Positions 5,650-56,279 of a stretch of 64,000 bases of DNA are shown in pieces. The DNA is from Cloeon dipterum (Eukaryota; Arthropoda; Insecta; Ephemeroptera; Baetidae). The stretch is from contig NC_088790.1 in assembly GCF_949628265.1 (NCBI RefSeq), positions 11,908,545 through 11,972,544 on the forward strand, written 5' to 3'. The notes beneath the pieces are model-generated. The model saw only the letters and a program-made list of their open reading frames with translations. It searched no databases and was not told the origin of the DNA. Numbering within the stretch: the first letter of the stretch is position 1; each line of letters starts with the position of its first letter. Position numbers and translations under genes: made by a program.

Positions 5650-8600
5650 ATGAGCCACTGGAACGGACGCGCCGCCGAGTGCGCTGAGTGTCGCCGACAA
5701 TTCGACACTTCTCTGCTAACCCGACGCACGGCCACAAGGGTCAGTCTAGTTTAACCTTGATTTATTCGCTAACAGTTGGCACCGATTGTATGTTTTATAG
5801 TTGGTCTGATTTGTTTATTTTCATTTAACGGAGGAAAATATTGAATTTTTTTAATTTGTCGGGGCACGGCCGGGTTGAAAATAACATAAACAAACTCGTC
5901 ATTGAACCTGAATTCTTGAGGTAAAATATTTTTGTTGATGGTCAGATAAACTTATCGTTAAGATTTCGAAAACACGTTATTAGATATTTCAAGTGCTCGC
6001 AATCAGTTGACCTATTTAACAACTTGTTTTCGTTATTTAGCAAAACGTTCTATTTTTTAAACAATCTCTGCTCCACACTGGTAATAAATAAAGCCAAATC
6101 TTTTTTTTATCGATCCTCTTTGAGTCCTATGTCATATTATATTAGGGAGCGACGGAGCTGTCTCCTCTTTCAGCAGCTCTGGGTCAGTATCGACTTACTC
6201 TTGCCGTCTCATCTCTGACAGCAGAAATCTCACAGAGATATATTATGCGAATTGGGAACTCCTTTAAAATAAGTCATTAACTTAAATAACCATTTCATTA
6301 TTTCTTTTAAATAATGCGTCTAGGCTTGAAAAGGGAACGCATTTCTGGTCTTGGAAGCCAGCCATGGACTCGTAACAAAGCGCATGCACGTGTGTGCTAT
6401 TCCGAGCAAACTACTAAATCGAGAGCAAGAGAGACTTTTTGGCACAGTCCACCTTGCGAAATCTATTTTCGAGAGGAATGCCATCGAAAGAAAACTGACA
6501 GTTTTTTCTTGTTTGCTTTTGGTGCAGGAGGAGAACGGTGTGACCGAGAAGGAGGCGGAGGCACTGGGTGAGAAGAGTCCATCTGAGAAGGAAGCGTCGG
6601 CCGCCGACTACAGCAACTTTATCCTTACCTACGATGAAGCGCCAGGATACCTCAAATTCAACCCATACATCCGCTCTGGATACAGAGGCTTCCTTACAAC
6701 CAAAATGTGCATTGAGAGGTAAATAATCAAGCTGCTTATACAATCAAATAACAAGGAAGTGTCAGAAAACCACAAAAGCAGATAACTTTTCTTGCTATTG
6801 TGGCACACTTCAAAATTTTAAGTTGAATAGAAATCGAGAAATAAATATAATATTTTTGCTAGCCATAAGTTTTAGAAGCTTTCGTGATTGGTCCGAATTA
6901 AGTTACGGCACAAATATTATTTCATTTACACTAAAAATAAATAACGTAAGCAACGTTCGCTTTGATGCTGTGTTCAGAATTTAAATTAATTGTTCAGAAT
7001 TCTGAAAATATAAACAAGCTACAGTTATTTTCCTAACATCCCTGATTAACTCTATCTTATCACTTAGAAGGTGTTTATATTTCTTGAATTAGCCCAAAAT
7101 GAAAAATTCCAAAATAATTAATTAAAAAATCATTCCCATTCTTGCGTTTTAAATACAGTATAATCTCAAATGGCATATTATCAAAACCGTAGTCTCTGCT
7201 TTCTTAAAAAAAACACGCCACAGAAGAATTTTCGTGTTACGCATTTTCGTAAGTACCTTTCCTCTTGCGTTATTTCAAAAGAAATAAACCACCTTCCTGG
7301 TGCGGACTTGCAAACGTAAACACGCGGTTGGGTTCGGCCAATGAAAATAAACGAAAACTTTCACTTGGAGGCTCGTCCGAGAAATTCCGTTGCACACGTT
7401 TCGGAGCCAAGGCCACAGCCTCCAAATATGTAATTTTCCCAAGCGATTTCTTACGCAAGCGGTGCGCGCTTTTCGCAGCATATTCTGGTGGACCAACGAG
7501 ACAGTCAACATCTGGAGCCACATTTTCGGCTGGATGCTCTTCCTCGGGCTCACCTTGTACGACCTGATGCTGCTCAACATACACGCGTCGGCCCTTGACA
7601 AGATGATCGTCGGCCTTCTCCTTCTTTGTTTCCAGGTAAACTTCGCCAATTGGTAACGCTTCCAGACAAATTACTTACGCCAGCGTGTTTTCAGGCTTGC
7701 ATGATTCTCTCCAGCGCTTACCACACCTTCTCGTGTAAGTCGGAAAAAGCCTACAGCTGCTTCTTGACGTATGACCTGTGTGGAATCGCGCTCAGCATCC
7801 TTGCAATTTACATGTCTGGTGTCTACTACGCCTTCTGGTGCTACTCAGTAAGTGGTTATTTAGACAATAAAACTTATTTTAAATTTACTTTAAAAATTGC
7901 TAAAGTTTGTAATTTTTTACATACGTAAAAAATCAAAATTATTAATTCCAATTGTACAAAACATATTTTCATTGAGTGGCGGTGGTTTTAGTTTTGTTTA
8001 GATAAAGAGCAAAATTTAATTTTAAAAGAAAAAAATCACTATTCAAAGCAAGTTAGAAAATTAACAAATACACGACATGATATAATAATTATTAAGTCTT
8101 CTTGACAAGCTTGTCAAACTAGAAATTCAATATTTTTCATTTACTAACCTTTAAAATAAATCCCTGACGTATTGACAATGTAATTCCCTGCGTTCTCAGG
8201 AATGGCAGCAGTTTTATTTGCTCACGGTCTGCCTGATCTTCGCGCTGGCGATGGCCCTGCAGTACCCTGCATTCCAGGTGGACTCTCACACCAAAATGCT
8301 CGTGTTCGTCGGCTGGGCGGCATACGGCGTTGTGCCCACCATCCACTGGGTGATCATGATGGGCGGCTGGCAGAACCCGATCGTCGTGGTGAGTGTCAAA
8401 GTTCAACGAGACGCGGCCGAGCGTTATTTAATTTTAATCTCGTTCACAGCTGCTGCTGCCAAGAGTGCTCGGAATGTACGCAATAGTCAGCCTGGCTTTC
8501 GCCATTTACATCACCAGGATACCCGAGAGATTTGTGCCAGGTGAGTCTTCAAAATTAATATTGAAGGCTGATTTCGTAACACCGCTAGATCTGCCAAAAC

Positions 8601-29900: not shown

Positions 29901-32900
29901 CTTAATCAAAAGATGCCATTGCCGGGAAATAATGGAGAAAGCAAACAAATACCCCTTTAAGAGAGTTTTCAAGTAAATAATGCCCGATAAAAAATCATCT
30001 GTTGCAGAGAAACTCGCTTTGATGAAGGTTCGTTACGGAAAGTACTACATCAGCGAGAACATGGTAAGAAACACTCAAGACGTGCTCGAAACAAGAAGTA
30101 TTGATTTTTGTCTCCTTTTTCCAGACGGACTGGTACGGTGCCAAATGGTTCTGCAAAACGCACGGCATGGAGCTGGTCAGTTTCGAGCGTGCCAGCGAAA
30201 TGAGGGCAATTTGGCAGATCGCAGACGCCTCCAAGGAGTGTAAGTTGTCCAATTGAGCAGCATGACACATCTTTTTCCAACCTCGAACACTCCATTTCAT
30301 TCACAAACAATAGAATCACGAAGCTGGAAGTGAATTGTTCATTCAAATCTATTTATCAACTTTTATTCGACCAATCTTTATCACCGAGAAATAATTTTCC
30401 CCTGAGGTTTTTGTGTGGCCAAATTTGTCACAATTTTTCTCATTGCTGTTTAAAAAAGGTCCAATAAATTTTGGCTTCGAATCGTTCCCTTGAAAGGATC
30501 AGCTCATGAAAAGTCACTGACAATTTTTCTAACTTTTGCAAAAATATTTCTTGTATTATTTTTCGGAAAGAAATTGCTTAAACATTAAAACGTTCTAGTC
30601 GATTGCCAACAAAATGCGCTAACACGAGATTAACCCTCCCAAGAAAAGAGTAGAGCGAAGGGAAGGGAAGGGCTGAAGGGTTGGAATGCTCATTTTAGAT
30701 CCATCGGCAACATAATGGCTGCTGCCTGTCACGTCCGTCGTTCTTCTCTGTGTTGCGAAGGCGGAAAATAAGAGCGGTGCGTGCTTGTGTGTCTGTTGCA
30801 GTCATGGTGTCCTACTGGACGTCGGCAAGCGACATCGGGCACGAGCGGGGCCAATTCCACTGGCGTGACGGACAGAAGATCGAGAGCGAGCTGTGGATCA
30901 CGGGCTACCCTGAGGCGCCGCCGGGCGAGCAGGAGCAGTCGTCGTGCGTCAGCCTGTTCATCGGCCGACTACGCGCCACCAGCTGCAACTACCAGCGCTA
31001 CTTCATCTGCGAGGGACTCAAGCACGACAACAAAGCCACCTTCCTCAACCAGAAAATCAATGGCGAGTGATCGCATTTTGCATGAATACATACATGCTCG
31101 CAATAAATAACACTCTCGAAAGCCCCGAAAAGACGACTTTCCTCTCTGCATGCGTGTGCTGACTCTGTGTGTGTGTATGTGCGTGCGCGACTTTATTGCT
31201 GAGGCAGGACGCCGCCTGTCTTGTTAGCTGCGTTGACAGCACGTCTTTCCTCAGCATTGATTTTGTTCTCGTTCTTCCTTCAACTCATTCCCTCACTGGG
31301 GATGCAAGCTTCGTCCGAAAAGAATTTGTCCCAATGCCGGGAAAAGGAAATGAGTTCTAAAACTGCAAAAAAAACAGCTAGGAAAGATGCCACATTGATA
31401 AAAAATATAGGGTTGGGTACTTTAGATGATCAAACTTTTTGTGTATCTGATTTACTTTGAGGCATGTAATGATCCAAACAATTCAAAGGCTCTCTAATTT
31501 TCTGCATCGGTATTATTAAATTCGGCTTTTCTTTTCCCGAAAAAATATCAATGAAAATTACCCCATGCTTACGATGGAAATATATAATTATGACAATTTA
31601 TTTTCACGCAATTTTATCCCGAATGCAGGCACTTGGTTCTTTGTCAGCGTCAGCAGTAACAGTAACCGCTGAAAACTCGAAAATTATAGGGCATAATAAC
31701 ACTCAAAAAGGAGTATGACGTATGTTAAAACCAAATGATAAATATAGAAATTTAATTATTAATGTCTCACATTCAGCAAGAAATGAGCATTGTAACACAA
31801 AAATTATCGATAGTCAAATGTGCCATAATGCTAAATTGATGATTCAAACATAACGGAAGTCATCCATAAAATAATGATCACGAATTTTTCAATGTCAATT
31901 TGAACGAATTCTCTTCTTAAAAATCATAGTTCCCCATTTCTCTTTCTCTTGTGTGCGTATCTCAGCACGACAAAGAGGACTGGTCCGTGTGTGTACGTGG
32001 TTTGTTTTTTTCATTTCTCTCTTTCTCGTAAGCGCCAAATGATCCTGACGGTGGCCAGTGTGCCGTTGAATTTCTAACTCACCTCTGGTTGCCGAGGAAG
32101 ACGCCATCAGGATTGAGCATCGGCACGATGTGAAAAACGATGTGCTCTCGTAGCGCCGACGATATTGGATGCGAGCTCACGAGGAAATCAATGAGGCCTG
32201 CAATATCGCAACTTGAGTTACTAGCTCGATCCTGCCTTTTGACACATTCCAGATCGCTCTAATCAAAGGTTACGAACGATAACTTCTCGAAATTGAAATT
32301 TTCCCGGAGAGCAAGTCAGGATTATTCCTTTCACGCGGAGCTCAGATGTTTAACAGATAATCTCTTACGTAATTTCTAAAGAATAAAGTTCATAAAAAAT
32401 ATGTAGACATTTTACTAACCTTGACAGGCAAACGAGGCTGGCGACTCTCCGGGATGGATTCTGCTAAAGATGCAAACGACGCGTTGCCGACTTTGCGGGC
32501 GCAGATTGTGTGGGTGCGTGATAGTTAACATGTCGATCCGCCGTTGTTGCTTTCAGGAGGAAAAACCTGGTTTATTATTTTCCAATACAGCAGCTACAAA
32601 TTTTTTTCATTGCTTTGTGATATACGATCCAAGTGAAGGAAGCTCAATTTTCGAATGATTTCTCAAAATAATCTTTTTTATTATTTAAAAAAAGTTATTT
32701 TATAGGAAACAATCAAGAGGTTTGTTATTTTTAGTTTCAAAATACGAAAAGTAAAAGGTTTTTGAGTTCCGGTGAGTGATGTAAAAATTAAAATTGCACA
32801 AATCGGTCAAATTTAGAGGAAAATACCTTGGATCAACCCTGAGGTCAGAAAAGACCATCAGAACAGGTAAGAAATCGATCCCTGGTGTCAGGGTAGCCCT

Positions 32901-53817: not shown

Positions 53818-53824
53818 TATAAAA
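53818..53824 (+). promoter_or_regulatory. TATA box of the mucin-lectin gene
   Basis: TATAAAA lies 38 bases before the proposed ATG at 53862. With normal spacing the transcript would start near 53848 and the 5' UTR would be very short, about 15 bases. Confidence 0.45.
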
Positions 53825-53861: not shown

Positions 53862-54706
53862 ATGTTTGTAAGTCGCATCTCATAATTTTCATTTAATTCA
53901 AGTTTCGTCCGTGAGTTAAGGTTCACCGTTTGAATATCTCCCTCATCAGTTTGATTATCATCGCTACAGTTGGACTAACAAGTTGTTACCGCAGAAGTAT
54001 CTATTTTCTTTAATATAAAACATTAATACTCTCGTTTTATCAGATGGAAAAGGTGTTGTGGGTAGGCATGACAAAGCGCAAAGAAGTCTACTCATCAAAA
54101 TATCTAAAATTCGAAGGCAGAAAATAATTAAATGTTGCGGCACCAAGAGCTGTCTAACCGGCCGAAAGAGAACACAAAACACTACAATAATCCAAGCCTC
54201 AGAAAAAAGCGAAACTATGTAAATTTTGAAATAAACAAAATCAGCTTTTGCCTTATTTAAAATGAATTGTTTTTTCTAGAAAAGCAATAGAAACGTCAAT
54301 AAATGAACAGATATCTACGCTGTCTCAAGAAGAGGCAACAACAGAACTGATTAAGGAGGCCACTGAAAAATTGACACCAGGGATATTGGAGCCTGAAACA
54401 ACAACCGAAACATTGGTGGCAACAACTGTAGAGCCAGATACAACAACCACATCTATGACAACAACCCAAGAAATAACAACATCAGCACTGGATACAACAT
54501 CAACTCTGATGACAACAATCACATCACCAGAGACAACAACAACAACAACACCGGAGTCGACAACTTCAACATCAACGTCTTCAACCACAACCACGTCCAC
54601 AACAACAACTACAGCAGCTCCAACTACCACTACAAGCACAACAACTACAGCAGCTCCAACTACCACGTCTACCACTACAACCACATCTACGTCAACGACG
54701 ACGACT

Positions 54707-54743
<37 letters not shown>

Positions 54744-55973
54744 CTACTACCACAACCACAACAACAACTACAACAACTCCATGCCCTGGTGATATTAGAG
54801 TTTTAACTCTCTCATAGAGTACATCATTATATATAAATAACACAACATTTTTCAGATACGTTCAACGTATCAGGAGTTTTTGTATGATTAAATTTTGTTA
54901 AAATATAATATAATTTTCATATTTTGAGCTAGACTACCTGGGAAAGTGCCAGATTAGACTGCAACCGAATGGCTATGGATTTGCTAGTTTTGGAAACAAA
55001 AGTAGAAGAAGGATGCTTTTTTGAGTATCTCCAAAAACTAGGTTTGCTAGATAAATATTTAATGAATTAATCCAGAAATTATAAATTATGAGAGCAGGAA
55101 GATCAGATGCCACTTTTTGGATAGGCATGAATTCTTTGGGGAAATCGTCGTTTTCTTGGATCAACAATGCCCCATATAATTTTACCTCGTGGGATACAGG
55201 GTTTCCAACGACTGTACCAAAAGATAATTGTGTCACAATCAAGTATATAATACGCAGACAAAATACACATGATATTATAGTATCTCATTTTAATGTCTAG
55301 AAACGGTAAATGGACAAACCAGAGGTGCATAAACATAAACTACTTTGCTTGTGAAAAGTCGACAACAATAACAACTTCTTCCAAGAGCTGTCCAGCAAGT
55401 AAATTATATTGCGTTAAAGAGTCACGTATGTTCTAACAAAAGTTTTGAAAAGCATCATCGACGTATTCTTTAACATTAGACAAGGTAAAATATATTCCAA
55501 GTAGCTGCTTATTAATTGTGGTAAAATAGAAAAGTTGGGATGGAGCGCGCACTGCATGTGCACAAGCCGGTTTCGGCGATCTTGTTACCGCAGAAACCCC
55601 TGAGGAGGATGAGTGCGTTAGAACACTTATTAGACAAAACGGTTTGTTTCCAAACAATATTTAGGATTTATTACAGTTAATTTATTTCATAAAATATATA
55701 GGAATTGAAAATGAATACGTTTGGATGTCTCTGAATTGCATAAATGAAACATTCTATAATCACTGGGCTACTGGTGCAAACACAAGCTACGTTTCATGGA
55801 AACCTGGAGAACCAGCGCAATACCCAGTTGAAAGATGTGCTATTTATTGGTAAAATAGCCAATATTTGTGTGGTTAAGCCCTCTTATATTTGAAATTTGA
55901 CAGGAACAATGGGTGGTATGATTTGCCATGTTTACATGCAACTTACTACGTTTGCGAGATCTCTTTACTTTGA
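53862..55973 (+). CDS. Secreted mucin-like protein with two C-type lectin domains
   Basis: Twelve exons: 53862-53867, 53921-53996, 54044-54218, 54280-54788, 54856-54881, 54933-55041, 55095-55242, 55301-55398, 55443-55462, 55530-55641, 55702-55849 and 55904-55973. The total is 1497 bases in one frame, 498 residues. Order: signal peptide (NISLISLIIIATVGLTSC); a basic segment, about 28-75, with KISKIRRQKIIKCCGTKSC and a dibasic GRKRTQ; a mucin-like region, about 96-252, mostly Thr and able to carry O-glycans; lectin domain 1 (about 253-367: PCPG, TTWESARLDC, ATFWIGMN, FACEK); lectin domain 2 (about 380-494: KSCPA, SWDGARTAC, YVWMSLN, WKPGEPAQ, WYDLPC, YYVCE). Domain 2 has EPA and WYD where sugar-binding domains have EPN and WND; domain 1 lacks both. 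It probably acts outside the cell in mucus, cuticle or immunity. The two smallest exons, 53862-53867 and 55443-55462, are the least certain. Confidence 0.82.
54706..54745 (+). repeat. (ACA)n trinucleotide repeat encoding poly-Thr
   Basis: A near-perfect ACA run inside the mucin exon. In-frame slippage would alter the number of Thr residues without breaking the frame. Confidence 0.8.
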
Positions 55974-56118: not shown

Positions 56119-56124
56119 AATAAA
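56119..56124 (+). terminator. Poly(A) signal of the mucin-lectin gene
   Basis: AATAAA lies 146 bases after the stop codon. Confidence 0.6.
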
Positions 56125-56279
56125 AGTAAATAAATTTTTAAATTTTCAACAACAAAAATTATTTTTATTTAAAACAAAGCAGTTATATGAAGTTATATTT
56201 TCCCCTTGGCTTCTTAAATTTTATCCGTGTCATTTTGATGCAAGAATGTAATATCAGTTCATATTATAATTATCTCAAA

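Follow-up and report, generated by a model that had tools for sequence, protein, structure and literature searches.

Gene model at the locus

The window, by which we mean the whole stretch of 64,000 nucleotides analysed here, corresponds to C5:11908545-11972544 of the Cloeon dipterum genome. The genome used is 190 Mb, and the published assembly of the species is given as 180 Mb in the text of PMC7250882 consulted. A gene of 12 exons and 11 GT-AG introns was mapped to positions 53862-55973 on the forward strand, with an open frame of 1506 nt encoding 501 amino acids and a stop. From the first to the eleventh, the introns measure 53, 47, 61, 67, 51, 56, 58, 54, 45, 60, and 54 nt, with phases 0, 1, 2, 1, 0, 1, 2, 1, 0, 1, and 2. 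The mapped features are listed below, all on the forward strand, with the evidence for each; A and B are two paralogues on C1, P0003 is a protein of the mayfly Neocloeon triangulifer, and CTLD stands for C-type lectin-like domain.

53818..53824, +, TATA-box-like TATAAAA, 44 nt before the ATG, inferred from the sequence
53862..53867, +, coding part of exon 1 (ATG TTT), identical in A and B
53868..53920, +, intron 1, 53 nt, phase 0 (paralogues only)
53921..53996, +, exon 2, remainder of the signal-peptide-like start (paralogues A and B)
53997..54043, +, intron 2, 47 nt, phase 1 (paralogues only)
54044..54218, +, exon 3, cationic module with RRQKIIKCCGTKSC (motif pattern match at 54115)
54219..54279, +, intron 3, 61 nt, phase 2 (model and P0003 only)
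54280..54788, +, exon 4, Thr-rich mucin-like segment (model, Neocloeon alignments, and composition)
54789..54855, +, intron 4, 67 nt, phase 1 (model and Neocloeon alignments)
54856..54881, +, exon 5, first strand of CTLD1 (model and Neocloeon alignments)
54882..54932, +, intron 5, 51 nt, phase 0 (model and Neocloeon alignments)
54933..55041, +, exon 6, CTLD1 part a (model, Neocloeon alignments, and Pfam)
55042..55097, +, intron 6, 56 nt, phase 1 (model and Neocloeon alignments)
55098..55242, +, exon 7, CTLD1 part b (model, Neocloeon alignments, and Pfam)
55243..55300, +, intron 7, 58 nt, phase 2 (model and Neocloeon alignments)
55301..55398, +, exon 8, end of CTLD1 and Thr/Ser linker (model, Neocloeon alignments, and Pfam)
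55399..55452, +, intron 8, 54 nt, phase 1 (model and Neocloeon alignments)
55453..55484, +, exon 9, first strand of CTLD2 (model and Neocloeon alignments)
55485..55529, +, intron 9, 45 nt, phase 0 (model and Neocloeon alignments)
55530..55641, +, exon 10, CTLD2 part a (model, Neocloeon alignments, and Pfam)
55642..55701, +, intron 10, 60 nt, phase 1 (model and Neocloeon alignments)
55702..55849, +, exon 11, CTLD2 part b (model, Neocloeon alignments, and Pfam)
55850..55903, +, intron 11, 54 nt, phase 2 (model and Neocloeon alignments)
55904..55973, +, exon 12, end of CTLD2 with the stop TGA (model; acceptor edge by Neocloeon alignments)
56119..56134, +, two poly(A)-signal-like AATAAA hexamers (56119 and 56129)

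The models of the window gene and of paralogues A and B were drawn by hand and eye and afterwards verified by script. The splice-aware aligner that placed the Neocloeon triangulifer proteins P0001-P0003 on the window was blind to the hand-drawn model, and each of the three proteins recovered both edges of introns 4-11 exactly. Intron 3 was recovered additionally by P0003 only, so its support comes from the paralogues and this one protein. Upstream of intron 3 the three alignments disagree with one another, showing small exons that are doubtless spurious, and are unusable; the placement of introns 1 and 2 is therefore that given by the paralogues alone. Two features considered 5′ of CTLD2, a micro-exon of 5 nt and an intron of 29 nt, were dropped once the paralogues, and afterwards the Neocloeon proteins, put exon 9 at 55453-55484.

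Over the CTLD exons, the window gene and B differ by about 91 synonymous and 70 non-synonymous changes, with a dN/dS of 0.115, which indicates that the reading frame of these exons is under selection. The TATAAAA at 53818 and the AATAAA hexamers at 56119 and 56129 are consistent with the ends of the gene. A search of Rfam gave no match at the locus, and a search of a phage collection gave none either. Judged from these comparisons, this is a real, intact, and conserved mayfly gene. An earlier sequence-only reading had proposed twelve exons within 53862-55973 with the frame kept over all junctions, and this is confirmed by A and B and, for introns 4-11, by the Neocloeon alignments; its eleven ultra-short introns, given as 44-67 nt, are also real and measure 45-67 nt.

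Protein domains

The spliced model bears out the predicted order of signal peptide, cationic segment, Thr-rich mucin, and two CTLDs. The N-terminus, read by eye, is hydrophobic and signal-peptide-like. Residues 24-85 form the cationic segment, with 17 K/R and 3 D/E, and residues 86-255 contain 91 T, 17 S, and 9 P, making 108 of these 170 residues Thr or Ser. With a putative signal peptide and a long Ser/Thr-rich tract, the protein has two of the features by which a secreted mucin is recognised. When the CTLD part was scanned with Pfam in an early version, Lectin_C (PF00059) was the sole family matched, in two stretches (91.9 bits against a cut-off of 22.6, E 5e-26). A protein search with residues 22-90 gave no match at E up to 10, the module being short for such a search.

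In sugar-binding CTLDs, the usual Ca2+/sugar motifs are EPN or QPD together with WND. These were absent from both CTLDs when read in the sequence; CTLD2 has EPA and WYD, and CTLD1 has neither motif. Sugar binding may therefore be lost or unusual. The product is best classed as a protein of the CTLD superfamily. Residue 24 is a further cysteine beside the three of the module, so that the cysteine count of the module segment would be odd only if the signal peptide is cleaved after residue 24. The chain ends five residues beyond its last cysteine and so has no C-terminal anchor.

Paralogues, selection, and age

A search of the genome for paralogues of the same architecture, which the sequence-only reading had suggested as a check, was successful. 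Both were found by protein search, A at C1:7.97 Mb on the minus strand and B at C1:29.41 Mb, and both share all 12 exons and all eleven intron phases with the window gene. The introns of A measure 45-65 nt. Those of B measure 45-64 nt except intron 2, which reaches 533 nt (L025:3007-3539) and contains an inverted-repeat insert with nested inverted repeats in three pairs of 60-66 nt arms; by its structure, the insert is like a small mobile element within a short intron.

The window gene and A are about 82% identical in DNA, including the introns (83.8%, 496/592 sites) and a further 250 nt or so on the upstream side. As the introns and upstream DNA are shared, A arose by DNA duplication and not by retrocopying, and it is a recent duplicate. 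About 2 kb upstream of A, the promoter and the first exons recur in a second copy at 80% identity (L024, reverse complement 1657-1970). For CTLD2, dN/dS between the window gene and A is 1.67, the polarised changes number 26 on A vs. 5 on the window gene, and A has lost the first CTLD2 cysteine. This looks like relaxed or changing constraint on CTLD2 of A after the recent duplication.

Deeper relationships were read from a midpoint-rooted tree of 72 CTLDs, from which partial domains and those scoring 150 or less were dropped; the L027-L029 models, the partial domains of L030, and L001-L008 do not enter it. The CTLD1s of the window gene, A, B, and Neocloeon cluster together (support 0.80), as do the CTLD2s (1.00), and this grouping by position places the origin of the two-CTLD layout before Cloeon and Neocloeon separated. 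CTLD1 of the window gene pairs with B rather than A, at a low support of 0.34, unlike CTLD2. The idea of a young, rapidly evolving gene finds no support in this grouping or in the low dN/dS against B, a comparison that shows, at the level of codon substitutions, the CTLDs of the window gene to be under purifying selection; only A appears to be loosening.

Intron size at the locus and in the genome

All eleven introns are at most 70 nt in the window gene and in A, as are 10 of the 11 in B. The sequence-only reading took this for intron minimisation at a single locus, possibly reflecting fast or high-level expression. However, the same size class is common elsewhere in the Cloeon genome. Among the measurable introns of myosin genes, 25/58 are at most 70 nt and 31/58 at most 100 nt; these counts are lower bounds, since introns were measured between exon matches and short introns bridged inside one match were not counted. 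Restoring twelve omitted rows adds introns of about 351 and 478 nt and gives 25/60 at most 70 nt. In related loci, 105 of the 118 CTLD introns are at most 70 nt (53/59 in L031-L050 and 52/59 in L026-L029), with medians of 53 and 55 nt. L026-L029 include near-identical tandem copies, and the CTLD intron boundaries in both sets were placed by profile splice alignment, so that the 14 values below 45 nt include likely edge errors (for example, 36 and 42 nt where the hand models of A and B give 54 and 48). The contrast drawn with other genes of the window was partly right. A PAQR (HlyIII)-like gene piece at 7483-8540, whose spliced frame is open, has one intron of 352 nt, but its other two measure 59 and 61 nt.

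Taken together, the myosin, PAQR-like, and related CTLD introns indicate that short introns are common in this compact genome and the rule within the lectin family. We conclude that the short introns were inherited within the family and that no special explanation is needed at this locus. Selection for fast or very high expression is a very improbable cause. What speaks for it is that every intron of the gene is short: if drawn independently from the myosin sample, eleven out of eleven at 70 nt or less would have a chance of about 1e-4. This estimate is weakened, however, as the introns of one gene are not independent, and the size class is also frequent in myosin genes, the PAQR-like gene of the window, and the related CTLD loci.

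The CC module and the mayfly lectin family

The cationic segment contains the module RRxxII[K/R]CCGxxxC. With the cationic exon as query, the genome gave 50 matches among 50 scored candidates, at E values from 4e-31 to 0.43, of which 28 lie within fetched loci; as this is a short module, with some 13 residues strongly conserved, chance hits may be among the weaker matches. Across 26 aligned module peptides (24 from Cloeon and 2 from Neocloeon), Ile is invariant at one position and Cys at three, and one Arg and the Gly are nearly so. The motif pattern found 30 module copies in loci L024-L051, and 28 of them precede CTLDs on the same strand, the nearest lying 674-2837 nt downstream. The two copies with no downstream CTLD are situated 860 and 1951 nt from the fetched ends, and no CTLD matches were seen on the opposite strand in the module loci among L024-L051.

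Within the window, the module pattern matches this gene only. A second, different CTLD gene lies at 30116-31013, with no match to the pattern nearby. Further CTLDs were seen in L030 (C5:13.83 Mb), also with no match to the module pattern in the 9 kb fetched.

The sequence-only reading knew of no standard family with its domains in this order, and such a family can now be named. Neocloeon P0001 (455 aa, labelled "macrophage mannose receptor 1-like") has, like the window gene, a signal-peptide-like start, the module as RREIIKCCGHNSC, a Thr-rich mucin, and two CTLDs. It is 60% identical over 99% of the CTLD region, and the edges of introns 4-11 agree on alignment, whereas the N-terminal 40 residues and the length of the mucin differ. 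The same order, from a signal-peptide-like start through the CC module and a Ser/Thr-rich linker to the CTLDs, is found in Cloeon P0020, P0021, and P0036, the linker of P0036 being also rich in Gly/Asp. P0016, also from Cloeon, carries the module and a Ser/Thr-rich linker, but its start is short. In the array L026-L029 (C2:25.21-25.25 Mb), the module is followed by a linker of DPSNP repeats, with no Thr mucin, and by many two-intron CTLDs; this array also contains near-identical duplicated blocks. We define here a mayfly CC-module lectin family by the module, a low-complexity linker, and CTLDs, all three of which are recognisable in the predicted product of the window gene. In its architecture and its placement in this family we have very high confidence.

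A lectin-OBP branch

On the CTLD tree, two-intron CTLDs (the window gene, A, B, the C2 array, and L046) separate from those with one intron or none called. In the latter, which form a sister branch, a third CTLD (CTLD3) passes into an odorant-binding (OBP) domain with no break in exon or frame; this was observed directly in 12 of the 20 fetched loci L031-L050, for example at L050:2876-3459, and OBP matches were found in further loci too. The domain was identified as an OBP by Pfam PBP_GOBP in 7 of the 10 relatives scanned, the other 3 having no match, and by a search of solved structures (best E 8e-14). Moreover, it has six invariant cysteines with the spacing C2-x3-C3 and C5-x8-C6, which is the spacing rule of OBPs. 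Precomputed Pfam assignments for 44 proteins, every one of them from Cloeon or Neocloeon, include PF01395 in 20. The chimeras of Neocloeon include P0047, which matches both Pfam families, and P0046, which matches PBP_GOBP and is CTLD-like by query similarity.

A search of the genome with the PF01395 family gave one match, presumably due to short OBP exons, and protein queries were used instead. Among the strong CTLD3-type loci, 90/96 are followed on the same strand by an OBP match no more than 1.5 kb away, and the other 6 have none in the list used. Because the OBP query was taken from a chimera, free Cloeon OBPs are hardly detectable with it, and the observation that 90/90 OBP loci lie behind a CTLD is uninformative about them. 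The link between the module and the OBP domain is seen at the DNA level in the fetched loci; no single annotated protein examined shows both. For 26 of the 50 modules there is no CTLD3-type match within 8 kb downstream, and the OBP branch thus makes up just one part of the module family. In the controls over the same distance, a CTLD3-type match was found on the opposite strand for 3/50 modules and upstream on the same strand for 7/50, as expected in tandem arrays.

The lectin-OBP proteins of Cloeon (P0017, P0023, and P0028) and their relatives P0020, P0021, and P0036 come from the same genome as the window gene and have short introns like it. Unlike it, the branch has one intron per CTLD, and where its OBP part is seen, the third CTLD is followed by PBP_GOBP and after that by another CTLD-like stretch. 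The window gene carries two CTLDs, each interrupted by two introns, and lacks an OBP domain: its frame stops at 55973, and the only OBP match nearby is a stray, weak one at 15.5 kb (E 0.04). As no OBP domain follows its last CTLD in frame, it lies outside the lectin-OBP branch.

Relation to known systems and proposed function

Sequences of solved structures gave 98 matches, headed by the yolk sac IgY receptor 9wyt (E 3e-29, in several short stretches); 5xts matched at E 1e-25 in one stretch over both CTLDs. These structures, together with 5ao5, represent the vertebrate mannose receptor family, with which tandem CTLDs are shared. Members of that family have ricin-type and fibronectin II domains, 8-10 CTLDs, and a membrane anchor. 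The window gene, in contrast, has two CTLDs, and no ricin-type or fibronectin II domain or anchor was seen, the Pfam scan having covered the CTLD part. The name that NCBI gives to P0001 thus does not seem to fit the window gene as a statement of family membership. Lepidopteran immulectins, which are dual-CTLD pattern-recognition lectins, are likewise secreted with two tandem CTLDs; to our knowledge, they have no mucin stalk or CC module.

We consider it probable that the product is a secreted-type, mucin-stalked, double-CTLD protein of the large module-marked mayfly family, one that would act in multivalent recognition or adhesion. Taken by itself, the function as a multivalent lectin is a more tentative proposal, somewhat less likely than not. 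The hydrophobic start would export the protein from the cell, and the Thr tract, if O-glycosylated, would form a stiff stalk. In collectins, N-terminal cysteines form interchain disulfides; the three module cysteines, an odd number, suggest the same and may join chains in this way. Mucus, cuticle, or microbes, for example, offer polyanionic surfaces to which the positive charge of the module could tether the protein, with the CTLD heads as the multivalent recognition or adhesion end.

An alternative is that the protein is a structural component of a gel or matrix, in which the Thr stalk and the disulfide-linked module build a mucus or peritrophic layer and the CTLDs bind protein with no sugar specificity. 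The lack of canonical sugar motifs in both CTLDs would fit such a role, as would a stalk in which nearly two thirds of the residues are Thr or Ser. However, the constraint on the CTLDs against B and their similarity to P0001 over almost the whole CTLD region perhaps exceed what a passive matrix needs, and we regard this role as rather unlikely. It is extremely improbable that a mucin gene and a neighbouring lectin gene were wrongly joined, and we rejected this two-gene model, in favour of which nothing was found: in the window gene, A, and B a single intron of 62-67 nt separates the mucin exon from CTLD1 and the frame is kept across it, and P0001-P0003 each combine a Ser/Thr-rich tract with the two CTLDs in a single chain. 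The multivalent recognition or adhesion protein remains our preferred reading.

Implications

An expansion of OBPs to a record 191 genes, many of them expressed in gills, has been published for Cloeon dipterum (PMC7250882). The branch described here comes from the same species, and its domain is likewise an OBP. The main text of that paper contains no occurrence of "lectin" or "c-type", PMC11597413 contains none of lectin, odorant, OBP, or mucin, and no description of lectin-OBP chimeras or of a mayfly lectin expansion was recognised among the papers listed from the open-licence PubMed Central literature. We see an even chance that baetid mayflies evolved a large secreted family built of signal peptide, disulfide/cationic CC module, mucin-like stalk, and tandem CTLDs, one branch of which captured an OBP domain that the window gene lacks, and that a large part of the 191 Cloeon OBPs may be domains of lectin chimeras and not free carriers.

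The intron sizes at this locus are ordinary for the Cloeon genome. Through the CC module the gene is linked both with an extensive lectin family of mayflies and with in-frame lectin-OBP chimeras, neither of which was found described in the literature searched. If the published OBP expansion overlaps these chimeras, its interpretation as a set of free odorant carriers acting in the gills would need re-examination, in the direction of surface recognition or ligand delivery by lectin heads.
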